From the NCBI GenBank assembly GCA_030950365.1, contig JAUZRQ010000118.1, positions 1 to 33,594 of the forward strand: 33,594 nt of DNA, given 5' to 3'. The DNA is from Candidatus Zhuqueibacterota bacterium. GTDB lineage: Bacteria > Zhuqueibacterota > Zhuqueibacteria > Zhuqueibacterales > Geothermadaptataceae. The position numbers were made by a program, and so were the translations under genes. A model generated the notes under the pieces. That model saw only the letters and a list, made by a program, of their open reading frames with translations. It made no database searches and was not told where the DNA came from. Each line of letters begins with the position of its first letter. The stretch's first letter is position 1. This document shows positions 25,333 through 30,035 of the stretch, one piece after another.

Positions 25333-25363
25333 ACTCTGGCAGGGGGTCAATCCCTGCCAGAGT
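25333..25363. terminator. Perfect 12-bp hairpin between convergent nhaA and phosphotransferase genes
   Basis: ACTCTGGCAGGG and CCCTGCCAGAGT pair perfectly around a 7-base loop. It begins six bases after the nhaA stop codon and overlaps the last codons of the convergent CDP-alcohol phosphotransferase gene. A bidirectional terminator is the natural reading, though neither strand has a T-tract next to the stem. Confidence 0.6.
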
Positions 25364-26180
25364 CCCCGGAGCGCCGCCAGCTCATGACGGTTTCCACGAT
25401 CTCACGGTAGCGCGCCTCGATTTCGCCCGAGTGAAAAATGTGATAGATGGAAACCACTCGAGCCAACGGAATGAGGCTGCCATAGGTCAGTAGAAACAGG
25501 TAGATCAGCGTCCATGGCGCGAAGCGAGCCTTCGCCAGGCTATCGATGACCAGAATCACGGTAATGATGTTCATGGATTCGGGATAGCGAAACAGCACGC
25601 GAATCAGCGATGGCTTGCTGGTGGCCAACCGGGTGGTCCGGCTGGGCGTTTGCTTTTGCAGATTCTCGAAGCTGTAGCTGGGATTATCGGCCTTAGCGAA
25701 CAGCGTGTTCACGGTTTGGAACATGGCCGAGATGTCGAACCGCAGCGAAAACAGACCGGCGGCAAAGCCGAGAATAATGACCTCGAGCTGACCATTGCGC
25801 TGGAACTCTCCGATGGCCAGCCCCATGTACATGAGCGGGATCACCACCTCATGTCCGATGAGATCGAGAAACACGCCGCGCACGCTGCTCTGGTTGCGGT
25901 AGCGCGCCACCTCGCCGTCGGAGCAATCGAGCACATAGCCGAGCTGCAACAGCAGGATGCCGGCGAAGTTCACCGCGTAATCGGCGCTCATCAGCAGCGC
26001 GCCGCCCGCCATCCCAATGAGAATTTGCAAAAGCGTCACGCCGTTGGCGCTAATGGGGGTGTGCAGCAATAGCCATGTCAGGTAAATGGAAATACGTCGC
26101 ACGATCACATCGTGCCGCGGGGCGTAGTGCGATTTCGATGATTTGGTGACCTTTTTGCGCAGCTCCGCAATGGATTCCAT
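25347..26180 (-). CDS. CDP-alcohol phosphotransferase (CDP-alcohol phosphatidyltransferase family)
   Basis: The product is 277 residues with about six transmembrane helices. The family motif D-x2-D-G-x2-A-R-x8-G-x3-D-x3-D is present from D85 to H110, but its last position is His110 instead of Asp; in structurally studied enzymes that fourth aspartate acts as the base. The enzymes join a CDP-linked alcohol phosphate to an acceptor with loss of CMP, at the membrane. The gene lies three bases after a methyltransferase gene and its ribosome site overlaps that gene's end, so it is the last gene of a tight operon. The substrate is unknown; a LicC/PntC-like cytidylyltransferase nearby would supply a CDP-linked head group. 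A bidirectional hairpin overlaps the 3' end. Confidence 0.88.
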   Translation of the reverse strand: MESIAELRKKVTKSSKSHYAPRHDVIVRRISIYLTWLLLHTPISANGVTLLQILIGMAGGALLMSADYAVNFAGILLLQLGYVLDCSDGEVARYRNQSSVRGVFLDLIGHEVVIPLMYMGLAIGEFQRNGQLEVIILGFAAGLFSLRFDISAMFQTVNTLFAKADNPSYSFENLQKQTPSRTTRLATSKPSLIRVLFRYPESMNIITVILVIDSLAKARFAPWTLIYLFLLTYGSLIPLARVVSIYHIFHSGEIEARYREIVETVMSWRRSGDSGRD

Positions 26181-26183
26181 ACC

Positions 26184-26996
26184 TCATCCCTCCCCCGGCT
26201 TGCGATACAGAAACAGCATGGATTTGATCTGCCAGAACCGGTTTTGAATGGGGCGGTATAGCCATTTCCAGCGCAAAAGCAGCGGATCGAACAAGTACTG
26301 AATCCATAGTCCGAACTGCAGCGACTTGCGCACCAGCCAGGCCTGTTTCCACCGCGCCGGCACCAGCCTGCGGTACAGAATCATGGGAAAATTCAGTGGC
26401 GTGAAGTCCTCGTGATACCAAAGCTCGAGTCCGGCGGCGCGAAAGTGCGTTTCATACTCTTCGGGCAGGCGGTAAATGGCCGAGTAGGCATCTTCCACTT
26501 TTTCGTGAAATTCACTTTGCACCTCGATGCGCCGGTGGATGCCCACGGTTTCCCGACTGACCACCACGCCGCCCGGTTTCAGCATGGCCGCCACGTTCTG
26601 CAGCACGGCCGCCAGCGCGTCATCCGGAAAGTACACCAGCACCCCGGACAAAATAATGATATCGAACGTGTCGTCACTGCGGAACGATTCCACGCTTTCG
26701 ACCCGAAACTCGATATTACGCATCTGGCGGCGCCGCGCCTCTTCTTGCGCGCGGCGAATCATGCCCTCGGCAAAGTCCACGCCGAGCACGTAATCGCAAT
26801 GCGTCGCGAACTCGAACGCCCAGCGGCCGGTGCCGCAGCCCAGATCCAGCACGCGACCGTGCGGCTTCAGCACTCGGAACAGATGACGTTTTTCGGCCCG
26901 GTGCACGTAATCGGCCAGCTCAGGCAATTTTTCAAACGCCGTCTGATACTTTGCCGCGTGCTTTTCCCAGAACTGCTTCGTGGTAGCCGTGGTCAT
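26184..26996 (-). CDS. Class I SAM-dependent methyltransferase in the head-group operon
   Basis: The product is 270 residues. The N-terminus reads FWEKHAAKYQTAFEKLPEL, then HGRVLDLGCGTGRWAFEF (motif I), VLGVDFAEGMIRRAQ, FDIIILSGVLVYFPDD and MLKPGGVVVSRETV. The C-terminal 100 residues are Trp/Tyr/Arg-rich with hydrophobic helices (FGLWIQYLFDPLLLRWKWLYRP), possibly sitting on the membrane. AGGAG is eight bases before the ATG. The start overlaps the ApgM-like stop by four bases and the end is three bases before the phosphotransferase start, so its function is tied to both. It is a paralogue in outline, not a close copy, of the methyltransferase on the plus strand. The substrate is unknown. Confidence 0.88.
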   Translation of the reverse strand: MTTATTKQFWEKHAAKYQTAFEKLPELADYVHRAEKRHLFRVLKPHGRVLDLGCGTGRWAFEFATHCDYVLGVDFAEGMIRRAQEEARRRQMRNIEFRVESVESFRSDDTFDIIILSGVLVYFPDDALAAVLQNVAAMLKPGGVVVSRETVGIHRRIEVQSEFHEKVEDAYSAIYRLPEEYETHFRAAGLELWYHEDFTPLNFPMILYRRLVPARWKQAWLVRKSLQFGLWIQYLFDPLLLRWKWLYRPIQNRFWQIKSMLFLYRKPGEG

Positions 26997-28222
26997 GCAA
27001 ACGTCTCCTGGTGCAAAAATTGCCTCATGAAATGATAACTGCGGCCGTAGCGCCCGCTGCCGCGCTGCTCCGCCTCGCGTTCGGTCAACCGCTTCGCCCG
27101 ATCCGGCTGAATGTTTTTGCCGTAGATGGCCACCGGCACCAGGTCGGAGGTGTGCGTGCCGTCCGACAGCAGGGTGTAATGATCCGGCAGCAACATGACG
27201 CGGTACTCGCCAGGCCAGTGTTCTTCGCAAAATTCGAGCAGTGGCCCGACAATGTTTTGGTCGATCAGCTCGATGGCCTTGATTTTGCCTTTAATACTGC
27301 GCTGATGCGCCTCTTCGTCCGGCGCGTTGATGTGAACATACACGAAATCTTCCTGCAGCAAAAACTTGCGCGCCGTGTCCAACTTGCCCTGATAATTGGT
27401 GTCGATGTAGGCGTTGGTGCCGGGGATGTTCTCCGTGCGCAGGCCAGCAGCCAGCCCAATGCCTTTGAGAAAATCCATGCCGCACACGATGCCGCCGGTG
27501 ACCTGGTAGGTCTCGTACATGTCGGGCATGTTGGGCGGCGCGGACGGGCTCCACAGCCAGATCATGTCCGCTTTGGTGCGGTAGCGTTTGTTCAGCTCCC
27601 GAAACTGCTCGATGGACTGCAGCATGATGCGCCTTAGCACCGGAATGAATTTGCGCGCGCGGTCGCTGCGGCCGTGCGGCAGGATGTCGTGAATTTCCTG
27701 CCCGATGTTCATGTGCGGCTCAAAGCACACGATCTCGTCCGCCGGGATGCCCGCTTCGCGGATGATGAGCAAATTGCGGTAGCTCATGCCCGGATAGATT
27801 TCGATTTCGAAGCTGTCCCGGTCGAATTTCAGGTGGGTGAGCATGGTCAGGGCATCGCCATCGCTGATCATGCCGGCGGTGAAATCCTTGATGCGGTCGC
27901 CATCCAGCGAAATGAGATTGCACCGAAAGGCCAGGTCTGCGGGGTCGAGGAGGATGCCCTTGGCCAGGGCTTCAAAAGAAGCGCGGCCATAGGGATAGTA
28001 TTCGTACGGATCGAAGCCCAGAATGCCCATGTTGGCCACGATGCTGCCGATGGGCAAATTGGGAAAAATCGTCTGCATCAGCCCGACCCGCCCCTCACGG
28101 GCGATTTTGTCGAAATTGGGGGTGTTGGCGGCTTCCAGCGGCGTGCGGTTGCCCAGCTCCGACACCGGCCGGTCGCCCATGCCATCTCCGATGATGACCA
28201 GATATTTTTTGGCAATTAACAT
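26993..28222 (-). CDS. ApgM-like alkaline-phosphatase-superfamily enzyme (phosphoglycerate mutase or phosphotransferase)
   Basis: The product is 409 residues. It matches the archaeal-type cofactor-independent phosphoglycerate mutase/proposed homoserine kinase family: VIIGDGMGDRPV with metal ligand Asp13, TPLEAANTPNFDKIAREG, catalytic serine Ser60 in PIGSIVANMGILGFDPY, FRCNLISLDG, the SAPPNMPDMYETY region, HINAPDEEAHQR and LPDHYTLLSDGTHTSDLVPV. All expected metal and phosphoryl residues seem present. The annotated relatives move a phosphate within or onto a small molecule. It is tightly coupled (ATGA overlap) to a methyltransferase and the phosphotransferase, which fits a role in making or recycling a phosphorylated head group at least as well as glycolysis. 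The ATG has no ribosome site; a TTG five codons earlier is possible. Confidence 0.85.
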   Translation of the reverse strand: MLIAKKYLVIIGDGMGDRPVSELGNRTPLEAANTPNFDKIAREGRVGLMQTIFPNLPIGSIVANMGILGFDPYEYYPYGRASFEALAKGILLDPADLAFRCNLISLDGDRIKDFTAGMISDGDALTMLTHLKFDRDSFEIEIYPGMSYRNLLIIREAGIPADEIVCFEPHMNIGQEIHDILPHGRSDRARKFIPVLRRIMLQSIEQFRELNKRYRTKADMIWLWSPSAPPNMPDMYETYQVTGGIVCGMDFLKGIGLAAGLRTENIPGTNAYIDTNYQGKLDTARKFLLQEDFVYVHINAPDEEAHQRSIKGKIKAIELIDQNIVGPLLEFCEEHWPGEYRVMLLPDHYTLLSDGTHTSDLVPVAIYGKNIQPDRAKRLTEREAEQRGSGRYGRSYHFMRQFLHQETFA

Positions 28223-28562
28223 GGATACGGAGTTCAATCGGGTTCAGGGTTCAACGAATTCAAACCGTGTCGGCAAAATGGCACACCTTTGCATGATTTT
28301 TCATTTGTGCTTGATACAAAAAATACTCTCGTAAGGTTTGCTGAGATCGCCGTAGGATGATTTGGAGCTTATCCGCGGTCGATCCGCGTCCTGCCGTGGC
28401 TTTAAAAATACTGTTTCGCCCTTTTCAGACGGAACCTGAGAAACATTTCAAACACAATACGCGCTTTGGATTCCTTAACACACAAATCTCGGCATGCACC
28501 AAATAAATGATTTTCATGCGGCGCCATACGGATCATTGCCATTCGTGGGTCAGGAAATCAAT
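28223..28562. other. Gene-free stretch between the nucleotidyltransferase and ApgM-like genes
   Basis: These 340 bases carry no credible gene. Both flanking genes are on the minus strand, so this should hold the promoter of the ApgM-methyltransferase-phosphotransferase operon. A short ATTCAA-type repeat (TTCAATCGGGTTCAGGGTTC region, 28230-28260) is present but no clear promoter boxes or terminator hairpin were seen. Confidence 0.5.
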
Positions 28563-29318
28563 TTACTCTGCCGCAGCAAACAGCGCCTCGGCGCGCCGCA
28601 AGTCCGCCTCGTCATCGATTTCCAGCCACTTGCGGCCGCCGATATCCAGCACCGAGAGGCGCGCTTCGGCGAGGTGATCGGCCAGCACCAGATCGTAGTA
28701 CACCTGCACCCGGCCGCGTCGCACATCCTCATCCAGCCAGCGGGAAAACGCCCGCCCGGTTTCGGGATGGATGGCCAGAATCCCGGCGGATTTGTAGCAA
28801 TGGCTGAAATCATCCGGCGGATCGCCGCGCACGATGCGCAGGCGCTCAATCACGCCATTCGCGTCGGTTTGCAGCATGCAGCCATCGCGGAAGCGGGCAA
28901 AATCATCGGCCAGCCAGTAGCTGCGGTCGGCGGGCACGTCGATGAGCGCCGTCAGCACATCCGCGGCAAAAAACACATCGCCTTCCAACAAAAGACAGCC
29001 GCCTGCAAGGATGTCCCGCGCCAGCCACAGCGAATACATGTTGTTGGTGCGATCGTATTCGGAGCTGTAAATCTCATGAATCTGCATCCCGGAGGCGTAT
29101 TCGCGCGCATGCGCCATCAGGGCTTCGTGCATGTAGCCGGTGACCAGATACACCTGCTGCACGCCAAAGGCCGCCAGATTGGCCAGCGCATTCTGCAAAA
29201 TGGTCACGCCGCCGATTTCGGTCATAGGCTTGGGCAGATGATCGGTACGCGGTTTCAGTCGCTCGCCTTTACCGGCAACCAGAAGAATGGCCTTATCCCA
29301 GAAAGCGGAGTCTGTCAT
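28563..29318 (-). CDS. LicC/PntC-like nucleotidyltransferase (CTP:phospho-head-group cytidylyltransferase)
   Basis: The product is 251 residues with the nucleotidyltransferase fold. The nucleotide loop is AILLVAGKGERLKPRT and PKP follows (Lys30). The segment YDRTNNMYSLWLARD followed by LLLEGDVFF is typical of the LicC (phosphocholine) and PntC (aminoethylphosphonate) cytidylyltransferases rather than of sugar-nucleotide enzymes, and YKSAGILAIHPETG follows it. The expected reaction is CTP plus a phospho- or phosphono-alcohol giving a CDP- or CMP-linked product and pyrophosphate. The actual substrate cannot be told. It lies 340 bp upstream of the ApgM-methyltransferase-phosphotransferase operon on the same strand. 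The ATG was chosen over a TTG five codons earlier; neither has a clear ribosome site. Confidence 0.82.
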   Translation of the reverse strand: MTDSAFWDKAILLVAGKGERLKPRTDHLPKPMTEIGGVTILQNALANLAAFGVQQVYLVTGYMHEALMAHAREYASGMQIHEIYSSEYDRTNNMYSLWLARDILAGGCLLLEGDVFFAADVLTALIDVPADRSYWLADDFARFRDGCMLQTDANGVIERLRIVRGDPPDDFSHCYKSAGILAIHPETGRAFSRWLDEDVRRGRVQVYYDLVLADHLAEARLSVLDIGGRKWLEIDDEADLRRAEALFAAAE

Positions 29319-29394
29319 CGGAGTCGATGCCAATGTTTAAGTTCATCATTCATAAAGAATTTTCTCAAATAGCGAATGATTTTATTATGCGTAT

Positions 29395-29790
29395 CTATAA
29401 TACTTGAAAAGGATCTTGAGCGTTTAATCGTTGATCAAATGTGGCTACCGAATCGCATCCATATTCAAGACAAACTTCCCCAATTAAATAATCTGAGAAA
29501 TCCGCAGTACCTGTTTGAAAGGACACCAGCGCTTTTCGAACCAATGACGCACCTTGAATTTTAAGTTCATTCGTATTGATTAAATACCAGATGGCTTTTA
29601 GTATTTTTGATTTTGGAAATTTTTAGTTGTGCTTTAAAACCTATACCAGTTCGCATAAAACGATGTGCGAAATACATCCTGGATTTTCAACTGTACATTG
29701 ATTTTGAAAAAGCGCTTCGGCTTTATTAGCTTGATCAGGATCATCATATGTCAAATACCAAACAAGGATATTTGTATCAATACCGATCAT
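29395..29790 (-). pseudogene. vapC: vapC PIN-domain toxin inactivated by two in-frame stop codons
   Basis: The frame of 131 codons, the right size for VapC, begins at an ATG overlapping the vapB stop by four bases and reads MIGIDTNILVWYL, then CISHIVLCELV. Codon 50 is TAG (29641-29643), where homologues usually have Trp (ELVW). Codon 56 is TAA (29623-29625), where an aromatic residue is usual. After that the frame continues without interruption as a good PIN C-terminus (ASLVRKAL, TADFSDYLIGEV, ATFDQRLNAQDPFQVL). The four catalytic acids (Asp5, Glu47, and the Asp residues in ADFSDYL and TFDQR) are all still encoded. Two separate point mutations, no frameshift, indicate recent loss of the toxin. 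Confidence 0.88.
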
Positions 29791-30035
29791 TCAGCGCTAT
29801 CCCCTTTTTCAATGGCTTCCTGCATTTCTTCAATAGTCTTTTTGGGCCCCGAATAGGCTAAAAGCCCTTTTAGTTCAGTTATGGAAATATTAATGGGTAC
29901 CAAACGGACTTGCCCATCAGGCCCAATCCAGAATTCAACTTTATCACCAGGCTTTATATTAAGTTTTTCACGAATCGATCTGGGCAAAGTGACTTGCCCC
30001 TTACTCGTGACAGTAGATATTGCACTATTTTTCAT
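29787..30035 (-). CDS. vapB: AbrB/SpoVT-fold antitoxin VapB
   Basis: The product is 82 residues. Residues 5-50 are the swapped-hairpin DNA-binding domain (STVTSKGQVTLPRSIREKLNIKPGDKVEF); the C-terminal tail (TIEEMQEAIEKG) is the part that normally wraps the toxin. The stop overlaps the start of the vapC remnant, the usual operon arrangement. The leader before the ATG is very AT-rich without a good ribosome site. The antitoxin is intact while its toxin is dead, so it is now an orphan repressor. Confidence 0.9.
   Translation of the reverse strand: MKNSAISTVTSKGQVTLPRSIREKLNIKPGDKVEFWIGPDGQVRLVPINISITELKGLLAYSGPKKTIEEMQEAIEKGDSAE

Follow-up and report, generated by a model that had tools for sequence, protein, structure and literature searches.

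In a 33,594-nucleotide stretch of DNA from a Candidatus Zhuqueibacterota bacterium (contig JAUZRQ010000118.1, which is contig C22 of the 4.98-Mb genome G000; hereafter the window), we found that a four-gene operon is real, under selection and restricted to its genus. It encodes a LicC/PntC-type nucleotidyltransferase (NTT), an ApgM-like phosphotransferase, a methyltransferase (MT) and a CDP-alcohol phosphotransferase (CAPT). The gene order, the protein families, their phylogeny, their conservation and the residue changes described below are direct observations. We propose that the operon encodes a pathway that makes a methylated amino-alcohol head group in CDP-activated form and in which a protein derived from the TIGR02535 family would serve as the phosphotransferase, a proposal to which we give slightly less than an even chance.

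An earlier note, made from the sequence alone, had placed these four genes and described their spacing, and both were confirmed by the open reading frames and by family scans (Table 1). The end of the ApgM-like gene and the start of the MT gene overlap by 4 bp (ATGA, 26993-26996), and 3 bp separate the MT and CAPT genes. The NTT gene is linked more loosely than the other three, lying about 340 bp upstream on the same strand, and neither a promoter nor a terminator match in this gap exceeded chance. A sister genome of the same genus (G001, candidate division KSB1) carries the same genes in the same order, split over two contigs, with the NTT and ApgM-like genes on C339 and the ApgM-like, MT and CAPT genes on C93. 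The NTT frame of G001 is unbroken, its stop being simply where the gene ends. Comparison with this genome gave dN/dS values of 0.036 for the ApgM-like gene, 0.08 for MT, 0.10 for CAPT and 0.21 for NTT, which by this measure marks all four genes as functional and purifying selection as strongest on the ApgM-like gene. Sampling covered 82 genomes of the phylum and a set of 388 genomes of wider relatives. An MT orthologue was found only in G000 and G001 among all of these, and a contig scan with the MT returned only the sister contig WFVT01000093.1 (candidate division KSB1) and a weak Dyadobacter match. Four genomes from the same family or order encode CAPT relatives at 37-44%, and three from outside the phylum encode weaker ones; viral contigs yielded none. 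Outside the genus, the 388-genome sample contained no ApgM homologue above about 43% identity, and none of the genomes sampled had the four-gene set. On these distributions of MT, CAPT and ApgM, the set is therefore a genus-level invention within the sampled genomes. Co-occurrence of the four families in relatives, which the earlier note had proposed as a check, thus held within the genus, with the order kept, but not outside it.

Table 1. Features of the four-gene operon in the window
Feature	Position	Strand	Family and assignment
LicC/PntC-type nucleotidyltransferase (NTT)	28563..29318	-	PF00483; proposed CTP:phospho-alcohol cytidylyltransferase
340-bp gap, NTT to three-gene unit	28223..28562	-	gene order same in sister genome
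ApgM-superfamily phosphotransferase, diverged TIGR02535 clade	26993..28222	-	TIGR00306; proposed maker of phospho-alcohol
Class I S-adenosylmethionine-dependent methyltransferase (MT)	26184..26996	-	PF13649 and related
CDP-alcohol phosphotransferase (CAPT)	25347..26180	-	PF01066; His at fourth signature Asp

The earlier note had named the second gene product simply an ApgM-like phosphotransferase. Its place in the ApgM superfamily stood, with 387.1 bits against TIGR00306 (apgM, cut-off 320), but the name needed narrowing: the protein belongs, as a divergent member, to the TIGR02535 clade, and ThrB and a distinct phosphoglycerate mutase are both encoded in its genome. It scored 374.4 bits against TIGR02535, under the curated cut-off of 446.3, and the true members L056 and L136 scored 550 and 532. 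All equivalog models likewise placed it below their cut-offs (PRK04135, 138.5 against 468; PRK04024, 243.2 against 489; PRK04200, 385.5 against 426). In the tree, the window protein and its G001 sister form a long branch (1.9) joined to the TIGR02535 'proposed homoserine kinase' clade with support of 100/100. A second ApgM of the same genome scored 597 bits against PRK04135 (cut-off 468) and is encoded beside pyruvate kinase and enolase; score and neighbourhood mark this protein, and not the window one, as the predicted glycolytic phosphoglycerate mutase. Relatives in the TIGR02535 clade keep other company: within the phylum, threonine synthase is the visible neighbour at 10 of 11 loci, and at 17 of the 18 loci inspected in the wider sample the neighbour is aspartate kinase, threonine synthase or homoserine dehydrogenase (27 of 29 together, read by eye from protein sequences). 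The window itself contains no threonine gene. ThrB scored above its cut-off in G000 and G001, whereas the 11 other phylum genomes that have the clade all lack a ThrB at that level; the window protein is therefore not needed as a homoserine kinase. Because it is not beside thr genes, ThrB is present and the phosphoglycerate mutase is encoded elsewhere, the protein would be free for a new role; it appears to be a paralogue of the TIGR02535 proteins that has left the threonine pathway.

The metal-binding and catalytic columns of the superfamily are intact in this protein (D13, S60, R80, R100, D302, D347, H348 and H357). Of 78 columns that are near-invariant in 25 threonine-linked members, it keeps 57 and changes 21, identically in both genus members, the changes including S115T, H118M, H150N, E299N, G305A and P351L. 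The DRRAGR motif of the phosphoglycerate mutase clade, which is NHSAGH or similar in the threonine clade, reads DFTAGM in the window protein. The loss of charged and polar residues would be compatible with an acceptor that lacks an amino-acid carboxylate. Single-sequence structure prediction was unusable for this protein (mean pLDDT 37.7) and for the CAPT (39.8). The TIGR02535 family is widespread and of unproven reaction, and in many bacteria its members are presumed to stand in for homoserine kinase; a Bacteroides member is required for threonine synthesis, yet did not complement thrB-mutant E. coli (PMC7311316). With family members such as BT2402 (PMC7311316) the window protein shares the clade and all common catalytic residues, but it differs from them in its lack of thr neighbours, in the ThrB of its genome, in its altered clade-invariant residues and in its score under the cut-off. 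A repurposed member, in a genome that does not need it for threonine, would give a second, independent handle on the donor and the type of acceptor used by the family.

ApgM-like genes also occur in other unusual settings. On a Rhodococcus plasmid (L132:3326-6275) and a Halobaculum plasmid (L134:3962-7271), such a gene adjoins an NMN-adenylyltransferase-like gene and a SelD or SelD-related gene, possibly an unrecorded selenium- or sulfur-phosphate pathway. On a Macrococcus plasmid that also carries mecB (L128:6368-9059), one adjoins a DASS-type anion symporter gene.

Among solved structures the best relatives of the NTT are LicC (1jyk, 8.8e-13) and PntC (6pd1, 2.5e-11). In the tree it falls in a 99/99 clade with LicC-like, CobD-associated, CDP-glycerol/LicD-associated and rhizobial phosphoenolpyruvate (PEP) mutase-associated enzymes, to the last of which it is 35-36% identical, and apart from the inositol-1-phosphate types, a grouping that bears out the LicC/PntC-like reading of the earlier note. 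The main positions of the GXG(T/S)RX4-8PK motif are kept in the NTT (GKGERLKPRTDHLPKP), with Glu at the T/S position. At the two amine-contacting positions described for LicC/PntC enzymes (PMC6697681), placed here through the LicC alignment, it has Glu117 as in PntC (Glu104) and Asp214 as in LicC, and this mixture therefore does not settle whether the substrate is a phosphate or a phosphonate. We propose that this LicC/PntC-type enzyme is a CTP:phospho-alcohol cytidylyltransferase. An inositol-type solute pathway for this NTT was rejected, given its separation from the inositol types in the tree. A separate fused inositol-type pair is present in the genome. This pair (L038:5938-7272 on contig C2) is a fused inositol-phosphate cytidylyltransferase/phosphotransferase-like protein scoring 311 bits against NF041135, under the cut-off of 580, and suggests a di-myo-inositol-phosphate-like product in this organism.

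The MT matched PF13649 (4.2e-25). When solved structures were ranked for this protein (METHYLTRANSFERASE), plant phosphoethanolamine methyltransferases came out on top only through the sum of two domains (43 and 36 bits); the generic methyltransferase 1ve3 reached 60 bits with a single domain, and nematode PMT1 gave 46.8 bits over residues 6-224, nearly the full length. Once the two-domain sum was seen, the assignment as a phosphoethanolamine methyltransferase was downgraded to suggestive only. The CAPT passed the PF01066 cut-off (31.3 bits against 22), and its nearest solved protein is AF2299 (4o6m). The CAPT signature D1xxD2GxxAR...GxxxD3xxxD4 has been reported to be absolutely conserved, with D4 as the likely base and a D4N mutant nearly inactive (PMC4634129; PMC6506517). 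The window CAPT (DCSDGEVARYRNQSSVRGVFLDLIGH) keeps seven of the eight signature residues and has His at D4. The same His is present in seven relatives (G001, L034-L037, L156 and L157), Gly or Ala takes its place in three further related plasmid proteins, and the other CAPTs examined keep Asp. The operon points to a CAPT subfamily without the Asp held to be the catalytic base. The closest relatives of this CAPT are encoded in clusters that also contain glycosyltransferases, flippases or sugar transferases, and a related CAPT gene adjoins tagD in a polysaccharide cluster of Lactiplantibacillus. CAPTs with His, Gly or Ala at D4 (L165:2959-3729, L166:4007-4894, L167:3992-4771, L156, L157 and L034-L037) are often found in polysaccharide-type clusters.

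Pairs of a LicC-like NTT and a CAPT recur inside and outside the phylum, combined with a possible source module for the phospho-alcohol, such as PEP mutase (L114, L130 and L131), a CobD-like pyridoxal-phosphate (PLP) decarboxylase with an MT (L104 and L105), a HisC-like enzyme (L110, L117 and L120) or an iron-containing alcohol dehydrogenase (L111, L157 and L167). Judged by its protein families, the window operon is of this same modular kind, with a different source module. The CDP-choline pathway of Treponema denticola (LicCA and CPT; PMC8590670) likewise combines LicC-type activation of a phospho-alcohol with transfer by a CDP-alcohol phosphotransferase; there, however, the LicCA fusion phosphorylates and activates choline, whereas the window has an ApgM-superfamily enzyme and an MT instead, and an altered CAPT signature. 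The phosphonyl-tailoring pathways that use PntC (PMC6697681) and the rhizobial plasmid clusters L130 and L131 (aepX - PLP enzyme - NTT - CAPT - MT) share the NTT, CAPT and MT, but draw on a PEP mutase without an ApgM-like gene, and the CAPT of L130 keeps the fourth Asp. Closer at hand, the same-phylum loci L104 (576-4106) and L105 (1258-4823), ordered NTT - CobD-like PLP enzyme - CAPT - MT, resemble the window in being four-gene sets with a LicC-like NTT, a CAPT and an MT related to the window one (28% over 150 residues), but their phospho-amino-alcohol would presumably come from decarboxylation of phosphoserine or phosphothreonine, and their CAPT is not orthologous to that of the window. In themselves, these two loci may encode a route to ethanolamine- or choline-type head groups by way of phosphoserine decarboxylation. 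We found no paper in the open-access literature that describes a pathway with exactly the gene set of the window, in line with the earlier note. Its remark that a choline kinase is absent from the window extended to the whole genome for PF01633, with no choline/ethanolamine kinase of this family in G000 or G001 at 1e-5; no search was made for LicA/APH-type kinases. The operon suggests a bacterial route to phospho-alcohol head groups without choline kinase. An essential replacement for phosphatidylethanolamine synthesis is unlikely, as Psd is present in the genome.

What we infer from these observations is the chemistry of the proposed pathway: each of its reactions, the identity of the head group, the point at which methylation occurs and the acceptor. 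The ApgM-like enzyme would use its active-site serine and two metals to move phosphate onto a small alcohol, such as ethanolamine, choline or a similar amino alcohol. The LicC/PntC-like NTT would link the phospho-alcohol to CMP, the MT may methylate the head group at the phospho-base stage or once it has been transferred, and the membrane CAPT would hand the phospho-head-group to an acceptor, either diacylglycerol or a lipid-linked or surface glycan. The tight coupling of the genes, the order kept in the sister genome, the purifying selection on all four and the occurrence of the same kind of NTT and CAPT with other modules support this proposal, as do an ApgM-like protein free for another role, with intact catalytic but altered clade-invariant residues, and a genome in which no PF01633 choline kinase was found. 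Several observations weigh against it: the set is carried by only two genomes and the NTT gene lies 340 bp away; no TIGR02535 member has a known activity (PMC7311316); the link of the MT to phosphoethanolamine enzymes is weak, its two domain scores lying below that of a generic methyltransferase; and the nearest CAPT relatives are paired with inositol-type NTTs in glycan-like clusters. We also considered a bolder form of the proposal, in which a TIGR02535-clade enzyme of the alkaline phosphatase superfamily would be an amino-alcohol phosphotransferase unrelated to choline kinases, opening a new CDP-head-group route, and transfer would be carried out by a CAPT whose catalytic Asp has become His; this full combination is doubtful.

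Given that its nearest relatives lie in glycan-like clusters with inositol-type NTTs, the acceptor of the CAPT may therefore not be a lipid. A glycan or polyprenol in place of diacylglycerol is a serious alternative, and decoration of a surface glycan or a polyprenyl-linked sugar, which is compatible with the first three proposed steps, is a possible outcome although not the one we expect. The glycosyltransferase, flippase and sugar-transferase clusters, the related CAPT beside tagD and the loss of the fourth Asp shared with glycan-cluster CAPTs argue for it, whereas the window contains no glycan gene and the neighbours of the four genes are nhaA, glpD and lysA. The ApgM-like protein might also be in the operon by chance, as a redundant phosphoglycerate mutase or homoserine kinase, the other three genes using a phospho-alcohol from elsewhere. 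The score above the general apgM cut-off (387 against 320), the grouping with proposed homoserine kinases and the intact catalytic residues would fit such an enzyme. However, the genome already has a phosphoglycerate mutase and ThrB, the protein is under every equivalog cut-off, residues invariant in the 25 threonine-linked members are altered (S115T, H118M, H150N and E299N, with DRRAGR changed to DFTAGM), no thr genes adjoin it and its gene is coupled to that of the MT through ATGA, so that we consider this explanation unlikely.

Two further schemes are less probable still. PhpG of phosphinothricin biosynthesis (NF038358) is a member of the ApgM superfamily that works with a CMP-activated compound, and, working in the same way, the ApgM-like protein of the window would take the CMP-activated compound made by the NTT as donor and transfer it to a phosphoglycerate-like acceptor, rather than make the phospho-alcohol. 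The membership of the PhpG model in the same superfamily (159.8 bits) and the pairing of ApgM-like genes with NMN-adenylyltransferase-like genes in Rhodococcus and Halobaculum speak for this scheme, but the score is far under the PhpG cut-off of 545, the window protein is nearer to TIGR02535, the partner nucleotidyltransferases in Rhodococcus and Halobaculum belong to a different family, and a CAPT is already in the window for the transfer step; on balance we find it improbable. Similarly remote is a PntC-type phosphonolipid pathway whose C-P bond would be formed by enzymes encoded elsewhere in the genome. It would explain the grouping of the NTT with the PEP-mutase-associated rhizobial enzymes and the alignment of Glu117 with PntC Glu104; on the other hand, Asp214 is LicC-like, the TIGR02535 clade of the ApgM-like enzyme has no known place in such a pathway, and neither pepM nor phosphonopyruvate decarboxylase lies nearby, although a genome-wide pepM search was not made.

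Between lysA and the NTT gene (29390-30035, minus strand), the window carries a gene for a MazE/AbrB-like antitoxin and, after it, a PIN-type toxin frame broken by a TAG near 29640. The pair is absent from this position in G001, where lysA adjoins the NTT gene (L119).

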